Below are positions 4,365-32,995 of a DNA stretch of 33,042 bases, piece after piece (position 1 is the stretch's first letter; the number at the start of each line of letters is the position of its first letter). Location: NCBI GenBank assembly GCA_903847485.1, contig CAINDV010000809.1, positions 1 to 33,042 of the forward strand. The letters run 5' to 3'. A program made the position numbers and the translations under genes. Source of the DNA: an uncultured Verrucomicrobiota bacterium (lineage in GTDB: Bacteria; Verrucomicrobiota; Verrucomicrobiia; Limisphaerales; JAJXZI01). A model generated the notes under the pieces. That model saw only the letters and a list, made by a program, of their open reading frames with translations, did no database searches and was not told the origin of the DNA.

Positions 4365-7300
4365 TTAGGTCGCTGCCTTACCAAACCCACCGAACAGCAC
4401 CTTGGCGAACGGATTTGCTCGCGGGCATTCCTGGCCAGTCAAAGCGGCGAGCGCGATCTCCCGAGGCTGATCTCTGTGGGCCAAGCGGGTGATAGAATCC
4501 TGAGCAACAATGGCAGACAGCAGGTCTTTGTTTTGGCTCCAACTGAGTACTTTCCAAACGATTTCAAAATGCCTTGCGAGGACATCCTGGTAGGCATCCG
4601 ATCCCCTCAACTTCTTGAGAAATAGTTGTGCCTCGGCCGGATTGACGAATCGAAACTCTGGCGGCGGGAGCTTGGCACCAATCCCCAAAACCCTGCGGAC
4701 GTAATGAATATCCACGGCGCTCTGACCGGTATGAAAACTCTGCATGGAGAGCTGCGTGCCTCGCTCGCCGATGGACTGCGCAGCGATCAGGCCCGCTGGG
4801 AAGCCCATCTCCGGCAATGTGCCTCCAGGCAAAGCACCGTAACAGGCCGCACAAAAGCCGTCCTGAACGAGACAGGTGGCAGGATTCCTTCTCTGCTCCT
4901 TGCTGCCGCAATCCGCAGACACGATTCGGTAAGGCCAAAGAGCGAAGACAAGGGCACGTGTGAGCGCGCCAGCGTAACCAGTCCCGAGCTTCTTATCGCA
5001 CATTGAACTGCGTGCATTCATTGCTGCGAAGAAGGCCTCTTCCGGGCCAAGGCCGTCTACCAGGGATTGTCGGAAAAAGAACCGGCCCATATCCTCCCCG
5101 ACCTTGAACCCTGTGGTGCCCGGCTCCAGCAGGCCACGGGCGGCAATAATCTGCCGAACCTGCTTCTTTCCCCGAGCACCCGAGAGTGCCATCGCAGCGA
5201 AATGCAGGCCGGGGCACCCGAAATCCGACGGATCGGCGACGATCCTATCCAACGCCTCGCCTGAGATCTTTTGCAGTTCGTCGTTCGACTTGCCATTCTT
5301 GTTTTCGCACACTCGGGTCACGTCCGCTGCAATTCGGGATGCGATCTCCCGCAATTCATAGAACCCAAAGGAAACGCCCATTTTGGAGCAGGCTGCGAAA
5401 GCCATCCGCATCCACTCTGCAATGCATTGCGCCGCCTTGTCTGGATGGTTGGTAGCGAGATGTGACAGTAGCTTGATGCCATCGCCTTTCGACATCCGCC
5501 TGGCCGCGGGAATCAACGTGCGGCAGCAATCGCCGGGCAGGCTCGCTCCCAGAGCTGCATTCGTCTCATTCGCACCGACCGCGCCCAACCAGTAAGTGCC
5601 GAGAACAAAATCCTGGTCGAAATGTGCCAACACGTTTCCCGGAGCCTCGGTCGCCAGGGAAAACAGGTTGCGCGATGGGAGGAGGCGGGCAGCTTCCTTC
5701 TGGGCGTCGGCTCCCAGGGGCACATGGATGACCATTTCGTCGCCATCAAAATCAGCCGCGAAACCCTTGCAAGTCAGCGGGCACAACTGAATGACATCAC
5801 CGGCCTCGGGCGGCAGAGGGACAGGGTGAAAGGCTTGAAAGCTGTCGCGGTGCAGGGAGGGCTGACGGTTCAACAGCACCACAAAGTTCGGATGCGCTTC
5901 CAAATACTTCCGCAGACTGCGCTGGGCCTCTGCCAGTGCAAGCGGGTCCTCCTTCGGATGCAGCCACGACAAGCGAGCCAGATTTGCCATCGGCTCATGT
6001 GCCTTCTCAGTCGCGCTCCGCCCCTCCAGCCAGGCGGCGACCAGGTCGCCTATCAACTCCAGCAGCACGGTTGTGGGGATGCCAGCGTCGTCCCAATCGA
6101 GTTCCGGGTTGGGTGTGACAACGAGCCGTGCCGAGCGGTCCACCCGGCGTCCGAGTCCGTGCCGCCGAATCATCCCGGACTTGTGTCGGAGCGCTTCAAC
6201 AAGCATTTGGAACAGGGTCTCAACCTGGCGTTCGATCTGTGAGGCTATCTTGGTCCGCTGCTCATCATCCTTTGCGTGCTCGTAGCGCAGACAAGACTGG
6301 ACGAGCGGCGCATATCCTCGGCGCTCGATCACGTCGGCGATGAGTCCACCTTTTGTGTTGGCGGGCATCCGATAGCGGCTGGGCAGGACTGGAATTCTCT
6401 GGATCATTGGAATGGCCGGCCGTTCGATCTTGTGGACCTTGAGGAACGAATCGAAGGCCTTGGCTTGATCCTTAGGGGACCTGCTCGTGGTCAGGAACAC
6501 ATGCAATGGATAGGGAATCTCGATAGGCAGACCGATGTAACCCCAGCGGTTGGAGTTGCGATCCGTAGATGTCGGTATGCCGGACCCAAAGATGCGCGGG
6601 TCGAACAGTCCCCCCGGCGTGCCGCGGAGAACTTGACCGAAGGGCTTGGCCCCCGCCAACCGGGAGGTCGAGTGATCGGGACAAGTGATGCGCATTTCGG
6701 CGACCGATCGTTGCGCACCCTCTTTCTCGAACTCAGCCAGGAGATCATCTGCCGACCAGTTCTTCCCGTCGCCTTTGTCAAAGCGGCCGTAAAGATACAC
6801 TTCCTGTAAAGAAAGAGGCCAGCGCGTCGGCTGCTTCCCGGCAACGGGTCTCGCTACTCCCTTCAATTGGTCCGTGGCGGCGGTGAATTCGAATGACAAC
6901 ACCCCAGCCGCTTGGCCAGTTTCCATGTCCTTCAAAGCGAGTGCAAACGTAGCCTCGTCGCGCCGCAGCGCTCCGCCGGGGAGAAGGAGAAGATGGTCCA
7001 GCAGATCGCGCAAAGCGAGAGTGGGCGCCTTTGCTTGCCCGCCTTGGGTAGGCGGGGCGAACGCGATCTGGTCGCCATTCAGGAGGCGAAAGTCACACGG
7101 CTTCTTGTTTCCGCCCTGCCGACACGCGAAACTTGCTGTGACACACGAGTCGAGGCCTCGGGGAGAATTCACCTGTCCAGCAAAGGCGGGTAGAGTCGCT
7201 GAGTCAGAAAACGAGAGACGAACATGGTCGTCGCCAACGTCGAGGTTGATCAACAAGGCAGACAGCCAGTCCTGTAGCGTCCGGCTGTAACCGGTGCAAC

Positions 7301-9722
7301 CGGGCGGACCAGAAACGGGTTTGTCACAACCAGGGGAGGCGACCAACTCCGCACTTGATTTCAGACCGAGAAACTCTGCCAATACGGCCTCGGCACTATG
7401 GCCGGCCAGCGCCCAGATCTCCATCTCGCCCAATCGCTGACCACCGCCAAGCTTCCTGCCGTGAATTGCCTGACCGGTTTTGGTCGAATACAAAGCGTCT
7501 TGGCCTCCGCGGCGCGCCTGCGACTTCAATTCGGCGACATGCCTCAAACGGACGATGTGCTGGAACCCAACCGTCACTGGTGAGATCGTCATGGTGCCAT
7601 CCGGCAACACGAGACGGATGCGCCCGTAGGGGTCCAGACCGGTCTTCTCCAGCCATTGTTGCACTTTGTCATGGCTGAGCGCGTCGGAGAATGGTGCGGC
7701 CATGGGCGTGCTCTCCGCGAAACCTGGCTTGAGCAAATCGCCGGCTTGGCATTGCCCAGAGTGCAACACCCACCCAAGGTGCGTCTCGATGAGTTGTCCG
7801 AGATTCATCCGCGAGATGACACCGTGGGGATTGAGCAGCACATCAATCGTCCGTCCACGAAGTTCTTCTGGCAAAGTCTGAGAATCGGGGAGGCGGGGCA
7901 TCTTATCCGCGTGCAGGATCGCCCCGACAACGCCCTTGTTCCCGTGACGGCCCATGAGCTTGTCGCCGGGGCGGACGGGGATCGGTAGCTCCAGCTCGTA
8001 TTCGAGAACGCCACCGGTCCACTCCGATCTCCTGTCAAACCGGATCGCCTTTAGGATGGCGGGGGTCCGTTCCTCGTAGAGGATGGCAAGGCGTTTCGAG
8101 TCGGCTTTGCCTTCCCATACAAACGAGGCAAGAGGACTTCCCGCCACCAATTCGGTGCCCGCTTTGGCCAAGCCTTTCTCGCTCCACTTCCACACGGTCT
8201 GCTCGACCGGGTCTGCGGGCACCCAGCCCAGTTTGATCGGCCTGCGCACTCGTTTATAGAACGCGAGGTCCAGCAAACCCTTGTCCACGACCTGCTGGCC
8301 GAGCACGATGGCATCTTCGAAGTTCATTCCGTGCCAGGGCAGATATGCCACGAGCAGATCGTGTCCAAGACCGAACCCACCTTCGACCGAGATCGCTCCC
8401 GGACACACTCCGATTTCAACCAGCGGTCTTACGAATTCCTGGAGCACAACCTCCCGGCCTGTCGTGACAGCCGGTCGGCTCGGTTTTCGCACGGGAACCG
8501 CCTGCCGGAGGTTTTTCGCGCCCATCATGTTTCGGGCACCATCGTTGTGGGCAAAAAACGGCACCAAGGCCGCGCCGAAACCGATCTCCGCCGCACTCTC
8601 TGTGGCCGGATGGATGTGGCCATCGAAATCCACACTGGTGCCCGCCGCAAGCTGGAGCGATAAACCGACCTGTTCGGATTCCGGACTCTCGACCGGGCAC
8701 AGCCTGCCTCGGAACGACGGATGGTTTTGCCGGAACACGGCCGGAACTTCATCCAGCTTCGAGGCTGGCAAATGGACGCGGCGCACACGGGTGATGCGAG
8801 ACGCGAGGTCGAGCGGGTTGATTGGGTCAACCCAATCCGTCTTGTCCGCAGACTTGTGGGCGTGGATTGCCCAAACCAGACGTTGCGCCGCAGTCTGCTT
8901 CCCGCGCTGAACGGCGAGCCAAGCTTCCCGTGCAAGATCCAGGGTACCAGCCTCAACCCCCGAGAGGACAAGCGCGGCTCGCTTGCCAAGTTTCCCCTCA
9001 TTCTCTTCTAGCACCAGTTTGAGGAACTCACGGGCTATCCGATGTTTCAGCCAGACAGGATACGTAACAAGAATCCGATGGGAGAGATCATCCTCGTCCG
9101 AGGCCTCTGATGGGTTGGCGTGGATCGCTTCGATTACGGCGTCCCAATCCTTGGGCCGTCCACGCACTGGTAGATACGAGCGTAGCCAGCCCGGGTAGAC
9201 TGTAGCTGACCCAAAATAGCGTAGGAAATTCAACCGCTTTCGTTCCTCCGTGGTTGGCTTGTTCAACGTGGCCCCAACAAATCGGCCACCAGGCAACCCA
9301 ATCCGCCATTGAATGTTGTCCCGCCGCGCTTCACTGGTCGGCCGGACCAGCCGGAATCCTGGCTCCTCACCTAACCATGAAGCCCAAACCGACACCAACC
9401 CGTGTTGGAAATCGGGCCGGTGTGAAAAGAACGCACCATGGAACGGCATCGGGACCACCAGTTCTATTGCGTCGTCGCCCCACTGGCATCGAACGCATCC
9501 AGATAGATCGGTGTTTTCCTCAAATGCCCGCTTCGCTTCAGCGAATGTCGGTGGCCCAGTTTTAACTCGCAACCTGTCCACAACACGAGGACGCTCCTCG
9601 CTAGCCAGATCTCCGAGCCAGACAGAAATCGAGAAACCGCACGAATCCGCCCAATGCTGACCGGACAGTTCATCAATCCAGAGTCCGTGGTTGCTGTCAA
9701 TATTCATCTCCTTCGTCCTCAT
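4365..9722 (-). CDS. Single-chain RNA polymerase, fused beta and beta' subunits, reduced
   Basis: The 1785 residues contain both large polymerase subunits in one chain. Beta motifs: CPVESPESEQVGL (342-354), GMNFEDAI (465-472), GDKLMGRHGNKG (586-597, both catalytic-centre Lys kept), NPHGVISRMNLGQ (631-643), GGQRLGEMEIWAL (760-772). Beta' motifs: GGLFDPRIFG (1037-1046), GRRVDRSAR (1191-1199), LLNRQPSLHR (1283-1292), the catalytic loop ADFDGDEM (1323-1330) with all three Mg-binding Asp, the bridge-helix region (about 1560-1591), a four-Cys zinc site (1605, 1617, 1624, 1627) and a trigger loop (1648-1665, His1664). E. coli beta plus beta' total about 2750 residues, so about a third is missing, including the N-terminal beta' zinc ribbon. 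Residues 830-1005 fit neither subunit. No alpha or omega gene is seen. ATG at 9722 overlaps the preceding stop (ATGA). Not a housekeeping enzyme, judging by reduction and context. Confidence 0.95.
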   Translation of the reverse strand: MRTKEMNIDSNHGLWIDELSGQHWADSCGFSISVWLGDLASEERPRVVDRLRVKTGPPTFAEAKRAFEENTDLSGCVRCQWGDDAIELVVPMPFHGAFFSHRPDFQHGLVSVWASWLGEEPGFRLVRPTSEARRDNIQWRIGLPGGRFVGATLNKPTTEERKRLNFLRYFGSATVYPGWLRSYLPVRGRPKDWDAVIEAIHANPSEASDEDDLSHRILVTYPVWLKHRIAREFLKLVLEENEGKLGKRAALVLSGVEAGTLDLAREAWLAVQRGKQTAAQRLVWAIHAHKSADKTDWVDPINPLDLASRITRVRRVHLPASKLDEVPAVFRQNHPSFRGRLCPVESPESEQVGLSLQLAAGTSVDFDGHIHPATESAAEIGFGAALVPFFAHNDGARNMMGAKNLRQAVPVRKPSRPAVTTGREVVLQEFVRPLVEIGVCPGAISVEGGFGLGHDLLVAYLPWHGMNFEDAIVLGQQVVDKGLLDLAFYKRVRRPIKLGWVPADPVEQTVWKWSEKGLAKAGTELVAGSPLASFVWEGKADSKRLAILYEERTPAILKAIRFDRRSEWTGGVLEYELELPIPVRPGDKLMGRHGNKGVVGAILHADKMPRLPDSQTLPEELRGRTIDVLLNPHGVISRMNLGQLIETHLGWVLHSGQCQAGDLLKPGFAESTPMAAPFSDALSHDKVQQWLEKTGLDPYGRIRLVLPDGTMTISPVTVGFQHIVRLRHVAELKSQARRGGQDALYSTKTGQAIHGRKLGGGQRLGEMEIWALAGHSAEAVLAEFLGLKSSAELVASPGCDKPVSGPPGCTGYSRTLQDWLSALLINLDVGDDHVRLSFSDSATLPAFAGQVNSPRGLDSCVTASFACRQGGNKKPCDFRLLNGDQIAFAPPTQGGQAKAPTLALRDLLDHLLLLPGGALRRDEATFALALKDMETGQAAGVLSFEFTAATDQLKGVARPVAGKQPTRWPLSLQEVYLYGRFDKGDGKNWSADDLLAEFEKEGAQRSVAEMRITCPDHSTSRLAGAKPFGQVLRGTPGGLFDPRIFGSGIPTSTDRNSNRWGYIGLPIEIPYPLHVFLTTSRSPKDQAKAFDSFLKVHKIERPAIPMIQRIPVLPSRYRMPANTKGGLIADVIERRGYAPLVQSCLRYEHAKDDEQRTKIASQIERQVETLFQMLVEALRHKSGMIRRHGLGRRVDRSARLVVTPNPELDWDDAGIPTTVLLELIGDLVAAWLEGRSATEKAHEPMANLARLSWLHPKEDPLALAEAQRSLRKYLEAHPNFVVLLNRQPSLHRDSFQAFHPVPLPPEAGDVIQLCPLTCKGFAADFDGDEMVIHVPLGADAQKEAARLLPSRNLFSLATEAPGNVLAHFDQDFVLGTYWLGAVGANETNAALGASLPGDCCRTLIPAARRMSKGDGIKLLSHLATNHPDKAAQCIAEWMRMAFAACSKMGVSFGFYELREIASRIAADVTRVCENKNGKSNDELQKISGEALDRIVADPSDFGCPGLHFAAMALSGARGKKQVRQIIAARGLLEPGTTGFKVGEDMGRFFFRQSLVDGLGPEEAFFAAMNARSSMCDKKLGTGYAGALTRALVFALWPYRIVSADCGSKEQRRNPATCLVQDGFCAACYGALPGGTLPEMGFPAGLIAAQSIGERGTQLSMQSFHTGQSAVDIHYVRRVLGIGAKLPPPEFRFVNPAEAQLFLKKLRGSDAYQDVLARHFEIVWKVLSWSQNKDLLSAIVAQDSITRLAHRDQPREIALAALTGQECPRANPFAKVLFGGFGKAAT

Positions 9723-12700
9723 CCCTTCAGCAATTTATCTTTGACCACCTGCAGGAAGCGATCTCGATCAACCCTCAACACAACTCCCGTAACTTCATTG
9801 CCTCGGTCTCGAAAGAGTCGCGTGGGCCGGAAGTCTGCAGAGGTTGCTCCGGAAAACGCTCCCAGCCCAGAAGGTGCAATTTCTACGTAGTACGTATCAC
9901 TGGTGAAAAACTCTGGCCAAAGAACGTATCCCACAGCCATTGGGTCGTGAAGCGGACAGCCATCCATCGCTTGGTTCCGATTGTAAAACTCCATGTAATG
10001 AGCTGTAAGCGCTTGAATGAATTTCGCATAGTGATTCCCACTACGGCAAAGATCGTTCACCATACTCCTCTGCAAAACGGCACGATGCGTAATATCCAGT
10101 GGAATAAAATTATGTTCAATATCATGCTGCTGACAGAAAGCTAAAACAACCCTAGCGCTCTCCGGGTCTGAATGAATGTTGAATTCGGCTTTGGCCGCTC
10201 GATTCCCCGGTTCGTCAAATGCTCCGCCCATGATCACAATCGCTTTCAATTGCTTGACGGCCTCAGGACAGATCTGCGTGAGCTTTGCCAGATTCGTCAG
10301 TGGTCCGGTCGCAACGAATGTAATATCTCCTCTTTCATGCTGCGCAACCACACGGTCAAACCCAGCAGCCAAGTCACCCCACTCCGGCATCTTGAAATCC
10401 GGAATAAATTCGTCAATGTTACCTATTCCTTGTTTCCCGTGAACATTACTTGCGTCTGGTCTTGCTCCTAAAGGTGCAAACCCCTTGAAGAGGGGCGGCT
10501 TGGGAAACACGCCAGAGTAAGCGACAATCTTGGCGCTATTGGTTAAAACTTGCTCTAGGGAAACATTCCCCCCCACGGCGGACACCCCAACAACTTTACA
10601 GCGTTTAGGTGAGCGCAATGCCAAAAGTAACCCCATCGCGTCATCCACCCCCGTGTCAACATCAAGCCAGAGCACTTCAGGTGGTCGGCTATGTGGCGAC
10701 ATACGCAATGCTTGAGAGCAGCGTTCAATGCGCGACCTCTGGGTTTTGAAAAGCTTGAACGAGGCTGCAAGGATCTCCGAAAGATCGGCCACAACAGTGT
10801 CATCAGGGCTGACAATTTCAATTTCCTCGCACACCTCCAAAGGCTCGCCTTGGCTGTCATCTACGCGGAACATATCTACGCGGAAAATATCGAGATGCAA
10901 TTGAGCCCATTTACCAAGGCCATTACCAACGACTTCCAAGGTGCATCGTTCGTTCTCAATGACGGCAATGGGCTCGAACTTCTTCCCACAACTTTCCGAC
11001 AATTTCAAAGCTACATTCCTTGGAACCTGCCTTGGCCGCTTCTGCGCTTCGCATGGCTTTGTAAGCTTGCCACTTGTTGCGAATTTTAGGTAATCCTGCC
11101 CTTTCACAATCGGACGCTTAATTTCAAATGAGCTCTTCTTGTCGATCGTCCGCCACCGGCAGGAGATTCCTTTTGATGTAAGCGCAAAGCGCCCTTCTGC
11201 GTCTATCCATTCGTCGTAGTAAACGTCCTTGATTGCTCGGCGTTCCAGCCTCTCAACCGTGTAGTCTCCAAACCTTCCCATGCGTCCAATGAGGCGAAGC
11301 AAAGCCCTGGCAAAGTGCCTGGATTGGAAAACAAATTTGAATTCATATAGCTGCTTTGGCTCGTCTTTGTGTGGAACATCCTTCTGGTGCGCTTTGAGTA
11401 ATCGCTCCTGTCGGTTGATCACTACCTGCAAGAGGCTTATCTTTGTTAGCGTTTCGTCATTTCCCCACTCGGTGCCTCCCAAGCGGATAAATTGTGTCAA
11501 ATCACGGCCAACATTATCAATGGCATCAAACTCATCCACCACATCACAAATCACGCTGAGAGCCGCTATGAGTGATAAAGACTTTCCACACCTTCCTTCT
11601 TGGGCATTGTCCAGCCAGCCATCTAACGCGTCCTTGATTTGGCCTACCACTTCGACGTCTTTACTATTCCGTGGGATGTTGAATTGCTCCCGCAGAAACT
11701 GGAACACGTCGGTGACGAGCATCCCGCAGGCAAGCGACCATTCCTTGATTGGCTTGACACTTGGCCAAGGCCAAGGAACGTTCTTTACCGCGATGGGCAA
11801 CGGACAATTAAACCGGATGTTCACCACGCCATCCTCAATCACTACAGCAGAGACGACTTGACGTTTCAAATCCTCCCGATTCTGCATGTCGGCCCGGCCA
11901 TCGGCTTGCAACAAGAATGGAGCGGGAACTCTGGAGCTATCCATTTCAATGGCATCGGCAAATCGGAAAATCGTTGATAAGTGCCGCGCGGCTCGGCGGT
12001 CGGGCAAACGAAGCGTTCTCGCCGTTCTAGTGAGCAGTCGGCGCACCTTGGCTAAATCCAACTTGTATTGTCGGATCTTCTTCACACCGGATGAATCCCG
12101 CTTAAGTTGAGCGAATGTCTTCTTATCCAATGACAGAACACGCGAATGATAGGCCGAGATTATGGCTGCCAACGAATGGGACTTTGGTGAGATTTCCATC
12201 AACTTATGGACAAGCGCCAGCAGCTCCGGGTCCAGTTTGGTATTAGGATCATCGGGATCTACAAGCGCCAAGAAACTCGTCAAAGCATGTTGCTTGCGAG
12301 CCAGTTCAAGACCGCTGTGAGTGCGCTCCCCGAAACCCTCCGCCCCAAGTGGAAACATCCCGAATTCGTGGCAGAGCACAGCGATATACAGACCGAGCAA
12401 CTCCTCTTCATCAAACTGGATTGCGCTTTTGGCATCGCCATTCTGATTCAGTTGACCTCGCAACAGCAACGGGCGCAAGAGTTGTTCAATCTTCTCAAGC
12501 AGCGCAACGATGTGCCGTCCGCCGTGGTCGTTGAAGAATCGAAAGTAGCTGTCATCCACAGCATGGAATCCGTCCAGCAATTTGAGACACCACAGCGTGT
12601 AATCAACAGCAACCTTGCGAAGCGCGGGGGTAACAATCGTATGGTCGAAAAGGGGATTGAGTAGGGAGTAGTGACGACGAGCGTTGCCAACCGGAAGCCA

Positions 12701-14068
12701 CTCTTCAAAGACGGATGCGAGGTCTTGGATCGTGCTAGTCTTCTTGAACAGGTAGCCATTGTGAAGTGTAGCCGAAGCGGCCAGTTCGGAACTAAGTGAA
12801 GAAGTCCAAACAATCACCGGAAGCCATCTCACGCGCTTTCGAAGCCTCTCGATCAATTCAATTCCGCGTGTGCCTGGTAAATATACATCTTGCAACACCA
12901 GATCGTAACGTAAAATGAAGTTATCCAGATCTCCTCGGCCAATGATTGATTTGGCATCGGTGGAATAATCTATTTCGATTTTCACTGGCTTGCCGAGCTT
13001 CTTAGCCGCGATTGTTTCTGCCGCGAGTTTTGCTCCGAGGACAATAGTGCTGGACCAGCAGCTTGCATGATCGTCCACCACGAGAATCCTATAAACCGTG
13101 TCGCATTTGGGCACCCCAATTTCGTCTGGGGCGGGTTCCTCTAACAGGTTGATCGTGCTGGTGCTGGCGCCGGGTTCGCCCTTCGCTATTGAACGGATAT
13201 CCGTTAGCAACGACATCATCCGTTCGAGTTCCTGGACTTTATCTTTCAACCCATCAGTTTGCAGGTCTGGTGTGATACAAAGCCACTCGGCTAAGCGGCC
13301 CCAAGATTCGAAAAGTTGCGCTGCAAGTTCGTTGTAAAATGGTGATCTTGGGTCAAGGCGTTTATGGGGCCGCCGTTTCGGGGGCTTTTCTGCGTTGGGA
13401 TTTTCGTCATTTATCTCCTTTCGTGCGTCTCCCAGCTTCTTGCACGCATCCTTACGAGCTTTCGCACTCGACATTATCCAAGATTCCCATGCGTCCTTGC
13501 GATCCGTGTCCTCTGGCTTTTTTAGAATCAACATCCGCGCCGGCCCGAGCATGATGTTTGTGACATCGGTCGCACCGCCGTGGCTGAACTCTGGCAGGAG
13601 TTTGATTAGTTCTTTGGCGTCTGCCACTGGGCGACAGGGACGCAAGTTCAGCGCAAAGTCCTTGTTTACAGCTTTGAATCGTTCCTGAATCTCCTGCGAC
13701 AACAAGACGGCATTGGGCGTAACAGAGTTGCTACGTTGGCCACAGACGCCCCGCCAGCGTGGTTCTAATTCCACCCACGGTTTGCTGTGTTTATCTTCCG
13801 TTTGCCAGGTGACATGAATGAAGAACTCGCAACTGGCGCGTTCCAATTCAACAAACCGATTCCAGAAATCTCTGGCGTCTGGTTCGAAAGTGAGCGCAAG
13901 GCCAATTCGACACTCATCCTTGCCTTTGCTTTTCTGAATCGCCTCCCCGCAGTGCAGGACATCCTGTTCTTTCACCAACCCGTTCAGATACAAGGGCAAC
14001 ACCTGTCGCCAGGCCTTCCACGCAGGCGACTCGTTGGTGTCGGCGATGATGATCTTGAGATGACTCAT
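9719..14068 (-). CDS. Receiver / HD-like / nucleoside hydrolase fusion protein
   Basis: A 1449-residue fusion. Residues 1-300 are unrecognised. Residues 326-445 form a complete receiver: Asp332/Asp333, phospho-acceptor Asp394 (LQDVYLPG), Thr422, and a terminal Lys (GYLFKK). Residues 555-720 look like an HD-type phosphohydrolase fold with the HD pair changed to His-Glu (LCHEFG, 567-568), plus AYHSR (His641) and RFADAIEMD (702-710). Residues 720-1130 are unrecognised. Residues 1130-1449 are a full-length inosine-uridine-type nucleoside hydrolase: DVDTGVDD (1136-1143) for calcium and ribose binding, IMGGAF (1279-1284), AEFN (1294-1297), and CPLHDPMAV with His1374. Such enzymes cut the N-glycosidic bond of ribonucleosides. 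ATGA overlaps link it to the AAA+ gene before it and the polymerase after it. The gene looks more A/T-rich than its neighbours. The likely logic is a phosphorylation-controlled enzyme, but no kinase is visible nearby. Confidence 0.88.
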   Translation of the reverse strand: MSHLKIIIADTNESPAWKAWRQVLPLYLNGLVKEQDVLHCGEAIQKSKGKDECRIGLALTFEPDARDFWNRFVELERASCEFFIHVTWQTEDKHSKPWVELEPRWRGVCGQRSNSVTPNAVLLSQEIQERFKAVNKDFALNLRPCRPVADAKELIKLLPEFSHGGATDVTNIMLGPARMLILKKPEDTDRKDAWESWIMSSAKARKDACKKLGDARKEINDENPNAEKPPKRRPHKRLDPRSPFYNELAAQLFESWGRLAEWLCITPDLQTDGLKDKVQELERMMSLLTDIRSIAKGEPGASTSTINLLEEPAPDEIGVPKCDTVYRILVVDDHASCWSSTIVLGAKLAAETIAAKKLGKPVKIEIDYSTDAKSIIGRGDLDNFILRYDLVLQDVYLPGTRGIELIERLRKRVRWLPVIVWTSSLSSELAASATLHNGYLFKKTSTIQDLASVFEEWLPVGNARRHYSLLNPLFDHTIVTPALRKVAVDYTLWCLKLLDGFHAVDDSYFRFFNDHGGRHIVALLEKIEQLLRPLLLRGQLNQNGDAKSAIQFDEEELLGLYIAVLCHEFGMFPLGAEGFGERTHSGLELARKQHALTSFLALVDPDDPNTKLDPELLALVHKLMEISPKSHSLAAIISAYHSRVLSLDKKTFAQLKRDSSGVKKIRQYKLDLAKVRRLLTRTARTLRLPDRRAARHLSTIFRFADAIEMDSSRVPAPFLLQADGRADMQNREDLKRQVVSAVVIEDGVVNIRFNCPLPIAVKNVPWPWPSVKPIKEWSLACGMLVTDVFQFLREQFNIPRNSKDVEVVGQIKDALDGWLDNAQEGRCGKSLSLIAALSVICDVVDEFDAIDNVGRDLTQFIRLGGTEWGNDETLTKISLLQVVINRQERLLKAHQKDVPHKDEPKQLYEFKFVFQSRHFARALLRLIGRMGRFGDYTVERLERRAIKDVYYDEWIDAEGRFALTSKGISCRWRTIDKKSSFEIKRPIVKGQDYLKFATSGKLTKPCEAQKRPRQVPRNVALKLSESCGKKFEPIAVIENERCTLEVVGNGLGKWAQLHLDIFRVDMFRVDDSQGEPLEVCEEIEIVSPDDTVVADLSEILAASFKLFKTQRSRIERCSQALRMSPHSRPPEVLWLDVDTGVDDAMGLLLALRSPKRCKVVGVSAVGGNVSLEQVLTNSAKIVAYSGVFPKPPLFKGFAPLGARPDASNVHGKQGIGNIDEFIPDFKMPEWGDLAAGFDRVVAQHERGDITFVATGPLTNLAKLTQICPEAVKQLKAIVIMGGAFDEPGNRAAKAEFNIHSDPESARVVLAFCQQHDIEHNFIPLDITHRAVLQRSMVNDLCRSGNHYAKFIQALTAHYMEFYNRNQAMDGCPLHDPMAVGYVLWPEFFTSDTYYVEIAPSGLGAFSGATSADFRPTRLFRDRGNEVTGVVLRVDRDRFLQVVKDKLLKG

Positions 14069-18894: not shown

Positions 18895-19599
18895 TCAAGA
18901 TGATGGCGACGCACTCGCTCCGATCAAGGCGAGTTCCAAATTCCGAAATACGGTCTCTGCTGGCAGACCGACTCCGTTCAGCCACGCCACCATTTCGTCG
19001 GCAGAACTCGGAATATTGATGTAGTTCCAGTGATACGCCCACTTCTCGCGATACGCGGTGTCAGACACGTTGGCTTCGAGATGCCGCATCGTGTTTTCAC
19101 GCGCGATTTTGTGCAGGTGGGGCGAATTGAAAATCGTCCAGTCGAGCATCAAGAATACGCCGTCCGGTTTGAGCCGTTTTTGAATGGCGGCGAACAAATC
19201 CTTTTTGCCCTGTTCGTCCTGATGGTGGATGCAGAAGGCGCTCACGATTGCATCCACCTTCGTTTCGGCAGAGGCGAGGAATTTGGTGTTTTCGGATTGA
19301 ACCAGCGTCACACGATCCGCGAAGGGATTAATCCGGGGACGTGCTTCATCGAGCATCTCGGGAAAGAGGTCAACTCCGGTGACGCGCGCGTTCGGGAAGT
19401 TTTTCAGCACGTAAGCCGACGTGACGCCAGAGCCAACCCCCAGGTCAATGACCTCGATTTTCGCATCGCGGGGAAAGGGAAGGCAGGAAACCAAGAGCCG
19501 ATGAGCTTCGTGATAATGGGGCAACGCTTTCTCGGCGGTCAGATCGTAAGACCTGTCCGAGACGTAAAAAAAATCATCAATGCCCAAGACTTTACTCAT
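18895..19599 (-). CDS. Class I SAM-dependent methyltransferase
   Basis: A 234-residue protein with a Rossmann-type SAM-binding core. Motif I is EVIDLGVGSG (49-58), the acidic residue after strand 2 is in VTGVDLF (Asp77), and IVSAFCIHH and VFLMLDW follow in the usual positions for motif II/III strands. The C-terminus (residues 150-234) is a helical substrate cap. I chose ATG at 19599, which overlaps the ABC ATPase stop by eight bases (ATGAGTAA); a longer frame back to 19689 would run deep into that gene. Last gene of the transporter / radical SAM operon; it probably modifies the same small molecule the other genes import or alter. The substrate cannot be told from sequence. Confidence 0.85.
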   Translation of the reverse strand: MSKVLGIDDFFYVSDRSYDLTAEKALPHYHEAHRLLVSCLPFPRDAKIEVIDLGVGSGVTSAYVLKNFPNARVTGVDLFPEMLDEARPRINPFADRVTLVQSENTKFLASAETKVDAIVSAFCIHHQDEQGKKDLFAAIQKRLKPDGVFLMLDWTIFNSPHLHKIARENTMRHLEANVSDTAYREKWAYHWNYINIPSSADEMVAWLNGVGLPAETVFRNLELALIGASASPSS

Positions 19600-20383
19600 G
19601 GAACTTCCGAAATCGCGTTTCACGGAACGACTGCCAGTTCTGAACGGCCCCGTCATAGCCAATGAAGAACCGGGTTGTCGAGACTGCATCGGTGGTATCG
19701 GAGACGATGTTCGTCACTCGGTCAGCGCACGCGAGCACCCATTCGGGATCGTGGCTGACGATAACGACCATCCTGCCGGTCGAGGCGTAGAACCGGAGGA
19801 TTTCCGCAATGCGCGCCGACCAGTATTCGCTCTGTCCGCTCATGATTTCGTCGAGGAACAAGATTTTGGGGGCGATGGAAAGCGCCCGCGCAAGAACCGT
19901 GCGCTGCTGTTGCCCCGCCGAAAGCTGGTGCGCGTAGCGGGCTTCGAATCCCTGCAAGCCGAGCAACTCGAACAACGTCTTTGTGCGGTCGTTCGCGGTT
20001 TCCTTTGCGACTCCCTGATTCAACATCGGCAGAGTAATGTTTTCGCTGACGGACCAATGCGGCATCGGGCCGGCCTGCGTGACCAAGACTTGATCAAAGC
20101 CAGGGCGCGGCTCGAACGGCGACCAGGTGACGAAGCCCTCCCGTGGCAGTTGCAGACCCGCGAGCGTCCGCAGTAGCGTAGTTTTGCCGCAACCGTTCGT
20201 GCCGTAGATGCAGTGAACCTGCCGGGCCTGGATTTCGACGTTGGAAACGCGCAGCGAGAAGTGGTTGTTGCCCTTCGCAGCAGCCTGATACGTGAGCAAA
20301 ATATCGCCCAACTTGGCCGCGAACGGCTTCTCCACCGGCTGAAACAGTTGGGCCAGCGAATCTTTTTTAATCTCGGCGACCAT
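19592..20383 (-). CDS. ABC transporter ATP-binding protein
   Basis: A 263-residue nucleotide-binding subunit. Walker A is GTNGCGKT (61-68), the Q-loop Gln is at about 103 (VTQAG), the signature is LSAGQQQ (154-160; the canonical last motif residue Gly/Gln is kept), Walker B ends in LFLDE (Glu179), and the switch His is 211 (IVSHD). It is probably the ATPase of the amino-acid-type importer whose permease and binding protein lie upstream, although the radical SAM gene is placed between them. An N-terminal extension of about 35 residues precedes the usual first strand. ATG at 20383 is three bases after the radical SAM stop, and its own TAA overlaps the methyltransferase start. Likely a cytoplasmic, membrane-associated dimer. 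Confidence 0.9.
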   Translation of the reverse strand: MVAEIKKDSLAQLFQPVEKPFAAKLGDILLTYQAAAKGNNHFSLRVSNVEIQARQVHCIYGTNGCGKTTLLRTLAGLQLPREGFVTWSPFEPRPGFDQVLVTQAGPMPHWSVSENITLPMLNQGVAKETANDRTKTLFELLGLQGFEARYAHQLSAGQQQRTVLARALSIAPKILFLDEIMSGQSEYWSARIAEILRFYASTGRMVVIVSHDPEWVLACADRVTNIVSDTTDAVSTTRFFIGYDGAVQNWQSFRETRFRKFHE

Positions 20384-20386
20384 AAT

Positions 20387-21838
20387 TCAAGAACCGTTCG
20401 CGACCGCGAATGAATTGAAAATGTTCAGGCGCTCGTCAATGAACTTTGTGTAGCGACGAATCGTCGTTTCTTCTTCGGGTCGCTTCGCGATGCGCAACTC
20501 AAGGTGCGTTCTCCATTCGCGGCTCGTGTAATACTTGCGATAAAGTTCCTGCCGAAGAAGGACGAGTTCATCGGCTGGAATGCCGACATTCAGAATCGGG
20601 TGTTCGCAATCGTATTTGCTCCAATCGCGTTCCAGAATTCGGCCTTCCTTTTCGGCGCGTGTGAACAACGGCGTGCCGGGGAATGGGGTGAGAAAGCTGA
20701 CGTAAAGTTCGTCGGGATGAACTTCTTTCAGAAATTCAAGATGCCGGACAAATGTGGCTTCCGTGTCAGTCTCGTGCCCCACGATAAATCCGCCCCGGAC
20801 AAAAATGCCGTGCGATTGCGCCAGAGCGACATCTTTCGCAATTTGCTCGATGTGTCCTGCAAAACTCTTGCGGCGCAGACGGAGGGTGTCGGGATCGGAT
20901 GCCTCAATGCCGTAGAAAAGCATGTGGCAACCGGATTCCGCCATGAGGGCAACCGTTTCCGGTTTTACAGTCCCTACCACGGCGAAGGCCCGCCATTTTA
21001 TTCTCACGCCGCTTTTCAAAAGTTTCTGGCAAAACGAGCGGATCACACTTTCAGGGCCGAAGGTTTCGTCCCGGATATTCAGTGTGTTGACTCCGTGCTG
21101 GGATTGCAGGAAGCGGATTTCGGCAATCACCTTGTCGAAGTCACGGTATCCATGCCGACCATGAAAAACTTGCGGCGTGCAGCAAAAGTCACAATGGAAA
21201 GCACACCCGCGTCCAATCACGATGCAGGCAAGCCGGGTGTCAGGTAGATTCTCCCCCATGCTCATGGAGAAATACCTTTCCCTAGGCAATCGCTTCGGTA
21301 TGGGAAGCGTGTGGAGCGACGCACCCATAACATTGCATTTGATGGAAACGCTAAGGCCAGTCTCCGAGTCGCGGTACGCGCACAGTCCGGGGATGCTGTC
21401 GAGGTTCGGTCGCCCCGTTTGAAGGAACTGCACGATGTCCCGGCAGGGAAGTTCGCCTTCCCCTTTGACCACAAAATCGAAACCCGGCGGACAATCGGCA
21501 AGTCCGAGCACATGATAGCCCCCCAACACCGTGGCGGTCTCAGGAAGCGCCTGCTTGATGGCGGAGGCAATCGCCTGCGCATCGGGAAAACTGTAGGTCA
21601 TGCAGGAAAGGCCGACCATGTCCGGGCGAATGGAAACGATCTTTTCCACGACCTCCTCGTTTCCCTCATCAAGTTGATGGATGAGGGTCACATCATGTCC
21701 GTTTTGTTCGAGGTATGCCCCGATATACTCGATGGCCAAAGGCTCTAACACTCTCGCCATTTGGCTGAGTGGATTGCGGCGGTAGTGTGCCGCCGTCACT
21801 TCGATGAGCACGACTCTCATCGCTCTCATCGCTCTCAT
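20387..21838 (-). CDS. B12-binding-type radical SAM protein
   Basis: A 483-residue enzyme. The N-terminus (8-150) has the Rossmann rhythm of a cobalamin-binding domain (VVLIEV, VGLSCMTYSF, VLGGYH) but lacks an obvious DxHxxG base-off motif, as in many members. The radical SAM cluster site is GCAFHCDFC (Cys212, 216, 219), which binds the [4Fe-4S] cluster that splits SAM. GGFIVGHETDTEATF and FPGTPLF are typical of this superfamily. The product could be a methylase or a ring- or bond-forming enzyme; the substrate is unknown. The start is uncertain because three in-frame ATGs lie at 21838, 21829 and 21820 in a tandem repeat. The first overlaps the permease stop as ATGA and was chosen. An upstream frame extension to 21904 lies inside the permease gene. 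Confidence 0.88.
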   Translation of the reverse strand: MRAMRAMRVVLIEVTAAHYRRNPLSQMARVLEPLAIEYIGAYLEQNGHDVTLIHQLDEGNEEVVEKIVSIRPDMVGLSCMTYSFPDAQAIASAIKQALPETATVLGGYHVLGLADCPPGFDFVVKGEGELPCRDIVQFLQTGRPNLDSIPGLCAYRDSETGLSVSIKCNVMGASLHTLPIPKRLPRERYFSMSMGENLPDTRLACIVIGRGCAFHCDFCCTPQVFHGRHGYRDFDKVIAEIRFLQSQHGVNTLNIRDETFGPESVIRSFCQKLLKSGVRIKWRAFAVVGTVKPETVALMAESGCHMLFYGIEASDPDTLRLRRKSFAGHIEQIAKDVALAQSHGIFVRGGFIVGHETDTEATFVRHLEFLKEVHPDELYVSFLTPFPGTPLFTRAEKEGRILERDWSKYDCEHPILNVGIPADELVLLRQELYRKYYTSREWRTHLELRIAKRPEEETTIRRYTKFIDERLNIFNSFAVANGS

Positions 21839-21840
21839 CG
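21814..21840 (-). repeat. Three perfect 9-base direct repeats carrying alternative ATG starts
   Basis: CGATGAGAG (minus strand) occurs three times in a row. Each copy holds an in-frame ATG of the radical SAM gene, and the first copy also holds the permease TGA. Since the unit is a multiple of three, copy-number slippage would lengthen or shorten the protein by Met-Arg-Ala without a frameshift, and would change the number of possible start sites. Confidence 0.9.
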
Positions 21841-22524
21841 AGAGCCTCCAATCCAAAACCATTTGCGCGTCTTTTCGCCGTGCCGAAGACGATATTCCGC
21901 CCATTCAACTACCAGGGTGATTAGAAGCAGGGGAACAAACAGCAGAAGCGCCAGCATGGTATACATCTCCACCGGCTTGTTCGTCTGTTGGATGATGTCA
22001 GACGTTGTGTGGTAAATCTCCCGCACGGAAATGATCGCTGCGAGGACTGTCAGCTTTATCGTTTGGAGCACTTGGTTGAGGTAGGGGATGCTCAGATTCT
22101 TGAACGCCAAAGGAAGAATCACGCGCCGCCAAATTGCCATCCGCGAGAATCCTAAGAGTTGAGCCGCTTCGACATGCTCAAAAGGAACTTCCTCGACTGC
22201 CTTGCGAAATATCTCCGCACAGAAAGCCCCCATGTTCAGTCCCAAAGCGAGAACGGCCACCGCCCAGGGCGACAACTTAATTCCGAAAGCGATGGAGAAA
22301 GAGTAAAACCCCCAAACAAGGAGAACCATCACCGGCAAAATTCGGAAAGGGTTGATCAGAATCCATGCTCCCCATCGAAGATACCAACGCGAGGAAATCC
22401 GAGGAGGAACAAAGACGAGACCAACCAGTGTGCCGACTAAAATTACTTCAATCGAAAGGAGAGCTGTCAGCCAAAGACCATGCAAAAATTCCGGCAAATA
22501 GCGGAATGCGATGGTCAAGTCCAT
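21835..22524 (-). CDS. Amino-acid-type ABC transporter permease (HisM/GlnP family)
   Basis: A 229-residue inner-membrane protein with the polar amino acid permease layout. Residues 1-35 hold TM1, a hydrophobic helix around 50-80 includes the family-typical INPFRILPVMVLL segment, and further segments lie around 88-105, 155-175 and 195-215. The cytoplasmic EAA loop that docks on the ATPase is visible as EAAQLLGFSRMAIWRRVILP (about 118-137). A positively charged C-terminus follows. The length is normal for the family. AAGGA lies about nine bases before the ATG at 22524, and the gene starts 19 bases after the binding-protein stop. Only one permease gene is present, so it probably works as a homodimer. 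Confidence 0.9.
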   Translation of the reverse strand: MDLTIAFRYLPEFLHGLWLTALLSIEVILVGTLVGLVFVPPRISSRWYLRWGAWILINPFRILPVMVLLVWGFYSFSIAFGIKLSPWAVAVLALGLNMGAFCAEIFRKAVEEVPFEHVEAAQLLGFSRMAIWRRVILPLAFKNLSIPYLNQVLQTIKLTVLAAIISVREIYHTTSDIIQQTNKPVEMYTMLALLLFVPLLLITLVVEWAEYRLRHGEKTRKWFWIGGSR

Positions 22525-22543
22525 AGCTCAGAGTCCTTGACGG

Positions 22544-23440
22544 TTACCTCTCAATGGTTTTCCTATCCGTTCCGATGTCGAATTGGAACGACCGCTTTTC
22601 GTGGTAGAGGTATGGAATTTTGTATTGCTTCTCCCACGCCGCAATGCGACCGGTGTCCTCGTAGTGTTTCAAAGCCGTGTTCACAAACTCCAGCCACCGC
22701 GAATCGCTGGGCTTCACCGCCCAACAAACCCCTGTGAACTCCACTGGATTATCAACTAGAATTTCTCGCAGGTTGGCTTGTGGGTTATCCCGCAGGAAAG
22801 TGAAAACCGTTACCTGGTTCATCAGGCCAACATCGGCTTGCGCCGGAACGGCCGCCAAAGGAGCACTGAGTGCAGGCTGCTCCAGGGAAATGATTTGTGC
22901 CTTCTTGAAAACGCGGGTGACGTAATCGCCGATGGCGGAGCCTTGCTTGACTGCCACTCGGACTCCTGGTTGGTCCAGGTCCGCCCAAGTCTTGAATCTG
23001 TCAACCTTGTCGGCAGTCGTGATGCCAGTGTAGCCAAGGTAGAGTATTGGGCGCGTGAATGAAGCGCCGGATGCGCGACTGGGCGAAGAAAATGTTGGGC
23101 CAACGGAAATATCGAACTCGCCAGCTTCAATGGCAGCGGCGAAGTTCTTCAGATCAACCTGCTTGTATTCCACTTTCCAACGCATGTCTTTGGCGATCTG
23201 CTCGACAATATCAACAAAGGTTCCAGTCAATTTGCCGTTTTGGTCACGCATGATCATCGGCTCCATGAGAAAATAGCCCGCGCGGATAACGCCAGTTCTC
23301 TGAACTCTGTCAAAAGCACCCTGCTGTTGCGAGGCGCTTGGCGATTGTTGTGGCTGTGGATTGCAACCAACCAGCAGCATCAGCCACAGGCAGGCAATCA
23401 GCACCGACGTTAACGTTTTCATGTGTTCTTTCGTTTTCAT
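22544..23440 (-). CDS. Amino-acid-type ABC transporter substrate-binding lipoprotein
   Basis: A 298-residue family 3 solute-binding protein. The N-terminus is a lipoprotein signal (basic start, hydrophobic core, LLVGC lipobox with Cys26). It is followed by a Gln/Ser-rich linker and the bilobed domain: VIRAGYF at its start, TGTFVDIVEQIAK, then EAGEFDISVGPTF and a second lobe with the hinge-side VAVKQGSAIGDYV. It would capture a polar small molecule outside the inner membrane for import. A second ATG at 23422 would start a slightly shorter signal peptide; neither ATG has a strong ribosome binding site. First gene of the transporter operon, 126 bases downstream of a recognisable promoter. Confidence 0.9.
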   Translation of the reverse strand: MKTKEHMKTLTSVLIACLWLMLLVGCNPQPQQSPSASQQQGAFDRVQRTGVIRAGYFLMEPMIMRDQNGKLTGTFVDIVEQIAKDMRWKVEYKQVDLKNFAAAIEAGEFDISVGPTFSSPSRASGASFTRPILYLGYTGITTADKVDRFKTWADLDQPGVRVAVKQGSAIGDYVTRVFKKAQIISLEQPALSAPLAAVPAQADVGLMNQVTVFTFLRDNPQANLREILVDNPVEFTGVCWAVKPSDSRWLEFVNTALKHYEDTGRIAAWEKQYKIPYLYHEKRSFQFDIGTDRKTIER

Positions 23441-25350: not shown

Positions 25351-25956
25351 TCAGTCTGCGGAATTCGACTTCTCCGCCTTGCCTTCTTCCAACGCCTCAT
25401 CCAGTCGCGCCTTGAGCGTGGTGGTGTCACCTTGAAAGTAGGCTTCTTCCACGGCGTCATCCCCCACCGCATTCCGGAGGACATGGGCTGACGTTCGCGC
25501 TTCCGGGTAAGCGACTGGATCGCCAGGCTCAGGTTCTTGCCCGGACGTTTCGACGGCCAAATCCTCGGTGATGCCTTCGCAAAGCTTCGTGCCCAAAATT
25601 TGCTCCGCTCGCGGATCGGCGAGTTGATGAAGCCGCTCATGCACCACGGTCTCGGGAACACCGGGCATGTCCCCGGTGCTGACGTGGGCCAGGTGACCGC
25701 GTTCCGTGTAGCCCACGACGCCAGGTTCTGGACGTTCGCCAAATTCGGCGCGATAATTTTTCACGAAATCCGCTGGCGTCTCGAATTGGGTGGGCAGGTT
25801 CGCCATGTGCTCCAGTCGTTCTGGCGGGACGAGGTGCCCGTATTTCTCGGCCAGCGCGTTGACGGTCTGTTCGTCCACGTCTTGGAAATAGGTCCGCAGC
25901 TTGTGGGTGTCGGCCCCCTCGGTTCGAGCTGCGTTCTCAATGGGATTATTGGGCAT
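25351..25956 (-). CDS. Small putative zinc metallopeptidase (HExxH)
   Basis: A 201-residue protein with a zincin-like core. HERLH (106-110) gives two His ligands and the catalytic Glu, and CEGITED about 17 residues later offers Glu127 or Glu131 as third ligand, as in gluzincins. The N-terminal 75 residues are helical and acidic, and the C-terminal 60 residues are acidic and helical. There is no signal peptide, so it should act in the cytoplasm. The start at 25956 overlaps the HerA-like gene by 11 bases, indicating coupling. A regulatory protease that cleaves a module partner or host target is a reasonable guess, but the fold is inferred from short motifs only. Confidence 0.6.
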   Translation of the reverse strand: MPNNPIENAARTEGADTHKLRTYFQDVDEQTVNALAEKYGHLVPPERLEHMANLPTQFETPADFVKNYRAEFGERPEPGVVGYTERGHLAHVSTGDMPGVPETVVHERLHQLADPRAEQILGTKLCEGITEDLAVETSGQEPEPGDPVAYPEARTSAHVLRNAVGDDAVEEAYFQGDTTTLKARLDEALEEGKAEKSNSAD

Positions 25957-28555: not shown

Positions 28556-29445
28556 GGCCGACCTCCGAGTTCTTGCATCTTGTGCATCAGAGCACGGCTT
28601 GGTTCCCAGAAGAAGCAGACCAGAGCGAGAATGACGGTGACGGTGACGACAAAGCCGATCCAGGAATATGAGTTCTGAATCCCGATGCGGCTGCGGGTGC
28701 GATGATTGTAGCCGCGTATGACGAACAAAGTCCCTCCGCGCCATCTCCCCCGCAGGGAAACCAGATCGTCCGTTGAGATGTTTCCGAGGCGGAAATCCCC
28801 TTTGACTCGAACCATCCATTCGATTTCATCGTCATCGCGCACTCGAAAATACCGAACCGGGACCATCTCTCGCTCCTGTCGGCGAAAAGGACTGAGCACG
28901 GCGTGCAGATGCAGCAGGGAGAGCAGGCTGGTCGGCGTGATGAACCGGAGGAGATAGATCATCCCGGCGACCGCCAAGAGGGCCGGGAGTGCTCCGAGCT
29001 TCACCAACACTGCGTGAAGCAACAGAAACGGTGAAGCGACCAACAGCAGAAACCACATGAGCTTGGTGAAGAACCTATACCAATCGAAATCCGGTTTCTC
29101 TTGGTGCGGCGCCTCCATCATAATCACCCGCCCGGTCAGGTCGCTCTTGGGTCTCGAACCTGCCTCTCGCTGAGGTGCTGTGGGGGGAGGTTGCCTGTTT
29201 GGCTTTGTCATGATGGGAGCACCGATGACGGGGGCATCCCAGGGCCAGGGCTGCATCCCAGCAGGCTGTGATGTCGCAGATCCTTCGTTCCAAGTAGCGC
29301 GAACCGGCGCATCTCGGCCAGCAGTTTCGGCGAACAGAGGCAACATTGCTCCGCAAGTTTCGCAGGACGGAACGCTGCACGGATTGTTCAGACCACATTC
29401 CAGGCATCGCACTCTGGGCAGGCTTAGTTCGGTCGGTGGGTTCAT
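28552..29445 (-). CDS. Zinc-ribbon membrane protein
   Basis: A 297-residue protein. The N-terminus has two CxxC knuckles (Cys14/17 and Cys28/31), a zinc ribbon of the kind common in regulatory or adaptor proteins. A Pro-rich, flexible linker follows (about 60-115). Then come hydrophobic segments at about 130-148, 151-168 and 262-280, which I read as membrane helices. Between them (about 190-255) lies a small soluble beta-rich part (VRYFRVRDDDEIEWMVRVKG). It probably anchors the HerA-like motor or tubulin-like filament to the inner membrane. The start at 29445 has an A/C-rich leader with no Shine-Dalgarno. A strong hairpin lies between it and the tubulin-like gene, and its TGA overlaps the HerA-like start. 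Confidence 0.75.
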   Translation of the reverse strand: MNPPTELSLPRVRCLECGLNNPCSVPSCETCGAMLPLFAETAGRDAPVRATWNEGSATSQPAGMQPWPWDAPVIGAPIMTKPNRQPPPTAPQREAGSRPKSDLTGRVIMMEAPHQEKPDFDWYRFFTKLMWFLLLVASPFLLLHAVLVKLGALPALLAVAGMIYLLRFITPTSLLSLLHLHAVLSPFRRQEREMVPVRYFRVRDDDEIEWMVRVKGDFRLGNISTDDLVSLRGRWRGGTLFVIRGYNHRTRSRIGIQNSYSWIGFVVTVTVILALVCFFWEPSRALMHKMQELGGRP

Positions 29446-29545
29446 CGGTTTTGAGGGGTTGTCGGTTTCGCGTGGATCTCAGGCGGGTTCCAAGCAAAGG
29501 CGCGGCAAACAACCGGTCGCTGGATTGCCGCGTTTGGAGACAAAG

Positions 29546-29579
29546 GCCGCGAGAGGCAGGATCGCCCACCTCTCGCGGC
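29546..29579 (-). terminator. Perfect 11-base-pair hairpin after the tubulin-like gene
   Basis: GCCGCGAGAGG and CCTCTCGCGGC form a perfect GC-rich stem with a 12-base loop, beginning about ten bases after the tubulin-like stop. No run of T follows on the minus strand, so it could be a partial terminator, attenuator or 3' RNA-stabilising stem that lowers expression of the downstream membrane and motor genes. Confidence 0.6.
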
Positions 29580-29588
29580 GTAATTCGG

Positions 29589-32855: not shown

Positions 32856-32973
32856 GATGGTGTGTGTGTTGTTTGTTGGTTGATTTGTTGTGTTCAGTTG
32901 GCGACTGGCGAGTGACGGTTTCATGCGGCTTGGCGCAGGTCGTCCGCGAGCAAATCGGGGCATCTGGCCCAGC

Positions 32974-32995
32974 AAATTCGCGGGGCCACGAATTT
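32974..32995. promoter_or_regulatory. Inverted repeat upstream of the tubulin-like operon
   Basis: AAATTCG and CGAATTT are perfect 7-base arms separated by eight bases, about 120 bases upstream of the tubulin-like start. No convincing -35/-10 pair was found around it. It may be an operator, or simply a chance dyad. Confidence 0.3.

Follow-up and report, generated by a model that had tools for sequence, protein, structure and literature searches.

The window analysed here, a stretch of 33,042 nucleotides from an uncultured Verrucomicrobiota bacterium, carries on its minus strand a run of three genes that form the subject of this study. P0001 (4365..9722) is an ATG-to-stop ORF of 1785 aa encoding a single-chain beta-beta' RNA polymerase, P0017 (3331..4350), directly downstream, encodes a sigma54-like partner of 339 aa, and P0018 (1970..3334) encodes a AAA+ ATPase of the sigma54-activator type (bEBP), about 455 aa long when read from the Met at 3334. 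Residues 300-800 of P0001 are beta-like and residues from about 1050 to 1690 are beta'-like. The beta domains found by Pfam, Rpb2_3 (307-362, 1.9e-8) and then Rpb2_6 (384-757, 1.1e-43), with Rpb2_7 (760-790) scoring slightly below the cut-off, are followed by the beta' domains Rpb1_2 (1191-1348, 7.9e-23) and Rpb1_5 (1557-1668, 1.5e-15), Rpb1_4 again scoring under the cut-off. The chain also aligns collinearly in sequence with bacterial beta and beta' chains of the PDB (E about 1e-45). Domain order, collinearity and an alignment of 18 family members bear out the initial annotation, which had read ordered motifs of both large subunits in one frame. That annotation had also described a reduced single-chain enzyme without naming a strand, and this description likewise holds: because Rpb2_1, Rpb2_2, Rpb1_1 and Rpb1_3 are not detected by Pfam on the chain, P0001 is, as far as sequence can tell, reduced relative to cellular enzymes, with the N-terminal beta domains and several parts of the clamp undetected.

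Both active-centre lysines, the three-Asp loop, the bridge helix, the trigger loop and a zinc site had been claimed for this frame, and all could be located on P0001. The family alignment places the beta motif GDKLMGRHGNKG at residues 586-597 (7932..7967, minus strand), with K588 and K596 separated by 8 residues, as are betaK1065 and K1073 of E. coli; the segment GDKLMGRHGNKGV, which holds both lysines, is kept with one-residue variants in all 16 members that cover this stretch. The catalytic DFDGD is found at residues 1324-1328 (5739..5753, minus strand) and occurs as ADFDGD in 17 of the 18 aligned members, the protein of genome G284 having DYDGD. The bridge-helix region, assigned from its position in the alignment, spans residues 1558-1593 (4944..5051, minus strand), and the trigger loop starts with QSIGERGTQLSM from residue 1649 on (4707..4778, minus strand), where it bears the family signature GERG; both elements are present in every member of the alignment. 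Between them lies a Zn2-type site formed by C1605, C1617, C1624 and C1627 (4842..4910, minus strand), whose C-x6-C-x2-C spacing is that of beta' Zn2 and which is kept in 16/18 members and lost in two. Judged from the alignment, a chance origin of this set of motifs can be excluded. A structure model of the 1200-aa core of a family member, made to look at the double-psi barrels of the active centre, is weak (mean pLDDT 63.5, pTM 0.40), and a Foldseek search with it returned bacterial beta' chains with E about 1e-18 over 740+ columns.

P0001 had been placed outside any housekeeping context, and the host genomes agree that it is not the housekeeping copy. The assembly to which the window belongs (9.0 Mb in 1379 contigs, 76% complete, 5% contamination) carries rpoB and rpoC as two distinct genes on contig C661, in frames of 1328 and 1412 aa respectively, and a separate housekeeping rpoB was found in 8/8 further host genomes tested, so that the single-chain enzyme is not the sole RNA polymerase of any of these hosts. 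Contamination of the assembly could have misplaced the contig, a concern that leaves the gene family unaffected. The fused rpoB-rpoC genes of Helicobacter and Wolbachia, whose subunits are of full length and which serve their hosts as the essential copy, resemble P0001 in having beta and beta' in one frame and differ from it in that P0001 is an additional enzyme. Fusion of the housekeeping genes is also seen closer at hand, as many genomes of the window's own order have rpoB and rpoC merged into a single open frame some 2670-2900 aa long; other members of the order have the two genes separate.

The polymerase is not unique to the window, as the neighbourhood search for homologues proposed earlier made clear. 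Single-protein scans of genome contigs and of viral contigs returned no homologues, and the members in Hydrogenedentes, Desulfobacula, Burkholderiales, Verrucomicrobia, Victivallales and Thermotogota came to light only with a profile built from the beta' part. Homologues of 1590-2023 aa occur in Verrucomicrobiota (including Verrucomicrobia), Kiritimatiellota, Lentisphaerota (Victivallales), Hydrogenedentes, Desulfobacula and Burkholderiales MAGs, and a sister clade of single-chain enzymes of 1270-1512 aa is made up of Thermotogota, including the isolate Athalassotoga saccharophila, and one Desulfobacterales MAG. A phylum-wide search gave single-chain homologues in genomes G344, G425, G428 and G284 and a fragment at a contig end in G263. 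Only housekeeping rpoBC was found in 146 order-level relatives, and only rpoBC and phage RNA polymerases in plasmid and phage records. Family members share the signatures NRQPSLHR and, at the trigger loop, GERG, in place of the housekeeping counterparts, NRAPTLHR and GEPG.

In a tree built from 826 beta and beta' columns the window family forms one clade (SH-aLRT 99) that groups with the Thermotogota and Desulfobacterales enzymes with support of 100, and the two together stand apart from housekeeping bacterial enzymes, mReC-type phage enzymes, large single-chain phage enzymes and archaea, a topology that did not change when the longest branches were removed. Placing the window family with mReC-type phage enzymes was rejected (p-AU 0.00015), as was placing it with housekeeping rpoBC (p-AU 0.002 (0.00195)), and the phylogeny against rpoB/rpoC and phage enzymes called for earlier thus yields a clade of its own. 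This result bears on the suggestion that P0001 is nothing more than housekeeping rpoBC in degenerate or recently fused form, with no function of its own; fused housekeeping frames in the same order give that suggestion some footing, but rejection of the housekeeping grouping, retention of the catalytic residues across great divergence, and co-conservation of the partner and activator genes make it highly improbable. A separate clade in the tree comprises other single-chain two-barrel RNA polymerases, of 2000-2330 aa, from seven loci on viral and Bacillus-MAG contigs.

The gene immediately downstream of the polymerase in the window, at every other family locus whose contig continues, and in Thermotogota encodes a small protein, strongly acidic over part of its length. 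The partner encoded at locus L057 is recognised by a match with score 46 (null 19), and that of G284, which is fused to the C-terminus of the polymerase, by one with prob 95 and score 61 (null 22). In P0017 N-terminal helices (31-61) precede a disordered acidic stretch (73-127) and an ordered region (131-339), and the AlphaFold model has 204 residues at pLDDT 90 or more. Three routes connect this protein to sigma54. One partner has Pfam Sigma54_DBD as its best match of 24736 families, with an E of 0.0016 that falls short of the cut-off. In profile-profile comparison the core of the P0017 family scores 41.3 over 84 columns against the core-binding/HTH region of RpoN (43 RpoN sequences), compared with 15.2 for the reversed control and 18.9 for the best of 59 shuffles; an earlier RpoN profile, of 14 sequences from one order, was too narrow. 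The partner pattern 'R..Y..IA.WL...FL ... S.fSRy....L.Wp.gslPL..lF' pairs in this comparison with 'R..TI..IA..IV..Q..Fl ... HEtTvSRa...KYm.TPqGiFemKyFF' of RpoN. Finally, ranks 1-9 of 350,542 chains in a Foldseek search with the P0017 model are all sigma54, with E values of only 0.03-0.5 (best match E 0.034, probability 0.84).

None of these tests is decisive singly, and together they make a strong case that P0017 is a distant sigma54 homologue, as the initial annotation had it. An RpoN-like core-binding/HTH region and an acidic region II (73-127) are present. An RpoN box of the ARRTVAKYR type, the element that addresses the -24 promoter element, is not recognisable in the P0017 sequence, and for this reason the protein is called sigma54-like rather than RpoN; the partners of Kiritimatiellae end before the position of the box. 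The Thermotogota partner matches that of the window family (27 against a null of 13) and gave no match when compared with RpoN directly (13 against a null of 19), and a profile search of the PDB by sequence with the partner alignment returned no sigma54. Short RpoN-like matches in two genomes (G154 and G156) were set aside, having no relative of the three genes nearby.

The activator gene that had been proposed is P0018, recognised by Pfam (5.7e-28) and by its motifs: Walker A GATGVGKT and Walker B VVFFDEI; its L1 loop reads GAYTGG, a partial match to GAFTGA. It has no C-terminal HTH, the chain ending about 175 aa past L1, and some known bEBPs likewise lack one. The bEBP is the next gene after the partner in the window, at loci L042, L043 and L057, and in Thermotogota, and at all of these it is without a C-terminal HTH; in Kiritimatiellae it lies close by, and the one Kiritimatiellae bEBP tested has an RtcR/CARF N-terminus (PF06956, 1.2e-17). 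No bEBP was seen near the polymerase of L041 or G284. Across these loci the Walker motifs are kept and the loops are mostly of GA(F/Y)T type. Across phyla, the conserved unit is exactly polymerase, sigma54-like protein and bEBP, and only this trio is constant; the accessory operon with its own sigma54-like and activator genes that the first reading described is one instance of a cross-phylum arrangement.

Upstream of P0001 in the window, the minus strand continues with P0002 (9719..14068), which overlaps the polymerase gene at an ATGA and whose 1449-aa product joins a receiver domain, an HD-CE domain and an inosine-uridine nucleoside hydrolase, then P0003 (14065..15906), assigned from Pfam and motif reading as a receiver-like N-terminus on a sigma54-activator AAA+ domain, and three unassigned proteins, P0004 (15903..16466), P0005 (16430..17335) and P0006 (17335..18882), of which P0004 has a 28% homologue at the same place in G263. 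The gene overlaps suggest a single tightly overlapping operon of which P0006 is the probable first gene, and no alpha-like gene was identified in it. G263 keeps the order P0004-P0003-P0002-P0001, with P0002 split into two ORFs; the GAFTGA loop of P0003 is degenerate (RVATGV) and is intact in the G263 protein, which is 51% identical. PADLOC defence-protein models gave no match for P0001, P0002 or P0017, and for both AAA+ proteins matched chiefly RtcR-type activators. On the plus strand beyond P0018 (47-1887) lie the C-terminal part of JetC3 and a JetD3 gene, with which a type III Wadjet defence system, truncated by the window edge, comes to its end. Further along the minus strand are a series encoding a solute-binding protein, a permease, a B12/radical-SAM protein, an ABC ATPase and a methyltransferase (18895-23440), and another (25946-32975), in which genes for a tubulin-like protein (PF13809) and a HerA-like ATPase flank one for an unassigned 297-aa protein containing a hydrophobic stretch, and which looks like another accessory system.

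The domain composition of P0002 and the defence-type genes nearby raise the possibility that the locus is itself a defence effector, in which the activated polymerase would act on phage DNA or drain NTPs while the nucleoside hydrolase and HD domain deplete nucleotides, leading to abortive infection. This is unlikely, as a dedicated sigma54-like factor and bEBP indicate promoter-specific, gated transcription, and P0002 is missing at most trio loci. The neighbouring genes suggest a role in stress or defence. In A. saccharophila (L068, 7877-21353) the trio, at 7877-11740, 11691-12581 and 12559-13950, adjoins type III-B CRISPR genes (Cas10/Cmr2 and RAMP), together with Cas_APE2256 (CARF) and an 861-aa HD-CE protein, and CARF-type and HD-CE-type genes stand alongside the trios of L066 and L072; to these may be added the RtcR/CARF bEBP of Kiritimatiellae, the HD-CE domain of P0002 and the type III Wadjet genes by the window locus. 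The neighbours at L043 are not defence genes.

Other loci have the look of mobile DNA. In G284 (L039, 2296-15662) ORFs read as an integrase, the fused polymerase-sigma54-like protein, Toprim, AAA and PolA-like genes lie beside mur/fts genes, a block that resembles a mobile element, and in L041 a phage integrase is directly upstream of the polymerase. Since phages and linear plasmids are where single-chain two-barrel RNA polymerases are typically found (PMC7281927, Table 1; PMC5467207), the trio could be a transcription module of mobile elements or prophages, its polymerase reading the element's own genes and several copies having become stranded in chromosomes. We regard this as rather unlikely, though less so than an effector role: capsid, terminase and tail genes were not seen around the window copy, the viral contigs that matched include no close relative of the family, a grouping with mReC phages is rejected, and the Thermotogota copies adjoin CRISPR-Cas or CARF-type genes.

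We favour the view that this locus specifies a parallel transcription machine that is complete in itself, is gated by its activator, and probably stays latent until stress or infection. This view builds on what the analysis shows: a second polymerase whose catalytic residues are all present, a partner homologous to sigma54, an ATPase with its loop motif and a trio that recurs across phyla. P0001 would be a catalytically competent one-chain core polymerase, to which P0017, a sigma54-type factor that is shortened and carries an acidic linker, would bind, holding it in the closed state at dedicated promoters. A signal received by the N-terminal domain of P0018 would then lead, through ATP and the GAFTGA-like loop, to opening of the closed complex, and the selected genes would be transcribed without the host polymerase. 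We infer the joint action of the trio, its gating, signal and targets, and its independence of alpha. A search for -24/-12 promoters stayed at chance level in the window and found none conserved upstream of the trio, and some Kiritimatiellae loci have sigma70 -10-like TATAAT/TAAAAT sequences upstream. Still more tentatively, such a second inducible system, working without the host core in bacteria of several phyla, might be wired to antiviral signals that sense nucleotides or RNA ends, and might sustain the transcription of defence genes once the host polymerase has been shut down or taken over.

Bacteria are held to have one core RNA polymerase shared by all sigma factors, a rule that would be broken by a second core that is conserved and comes with a sigma54-type factor and an activator of its own. 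Because the same three-gene set recurs in distant bacteria, it seems that a spare transcription machine, complete in its parts, is maintained in some of them, perhaps for use in emergencies, infection among them. The trio may serve as a minimal model of sigma54 activation that does without alpha, and would be an orthogonal transcription system of natural origin, for which at least one host, A. saccharophila, is in culture; a link to CARF or CRISPR signalling, if there is one, would make it a new immunity strategy.

Compared to cellular RpoB and RpoC, P0001 has the same collinear cores, two lysines, DFDGD, bridge helix, trigger loop and Zn2 site, and differs in being one chain of 1785 aa in which several N-terminal beta and clamp domains are unrecognisable, an extra copy, and a member of its own clade. 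With the RpoN holoenzyme and bEBPs of NtrC/PspF/RtcR type the trio shares a sigma54-like factor with an acidic stretch and HTH core, a AAA+ protein with a GAFTGA-like loop and, in Kiritimatiellae, the RtcR/CARF N-terminus, whereas its core polymerase is encoded alongside, its partner is reduced, with no RpoN box found, and bEBPs of the window type are without an HTH. RtcR-like activators unlinked to rtc genes have been predicted as sigma54-dependent regulators linked to restriction-modification, with no dedicated core (PMC4012209). YonO, crAss-like gp66 and P23-45 gp64 resemble P0001 in having both barrels in one protein. In YonO only a handful of catalytic residues are shared and a trigger loop cannot be recognised (PMC5467207), whereas P0001 has a trigger-loop start, long collinear homology and readily aligned core domains, and is accompanied by a sigma54-like partner and bEBP. 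The beta and beta' subunits encoded by mReC phages (PMC7481178) can be aligned with P0001, and viral relatives taken as mReC often share the GER trigger-loop signature, although their enzyme consists of two separate subunits and is found in phage genomes. A review table of single-subunit, two-barrel DNA-directed RNA polymerases lists only phages and linear cytoplasmic plasmids (PMC7281927), and a 2024 dendrogram mentions fused-barrel derivatives of cellular RNA polymerases, unnamed in the text (PMC10770324). No description of the trio was found in the open-access literature searched, in line with the initial annotation, which had known of no system of this composition; an earlier mention of the polymerase family is possible. 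With that reservation, and because of the comparison with the review table, YonO, mReC and the 2024 dendrogram, the trio is rated as a categorically new system.
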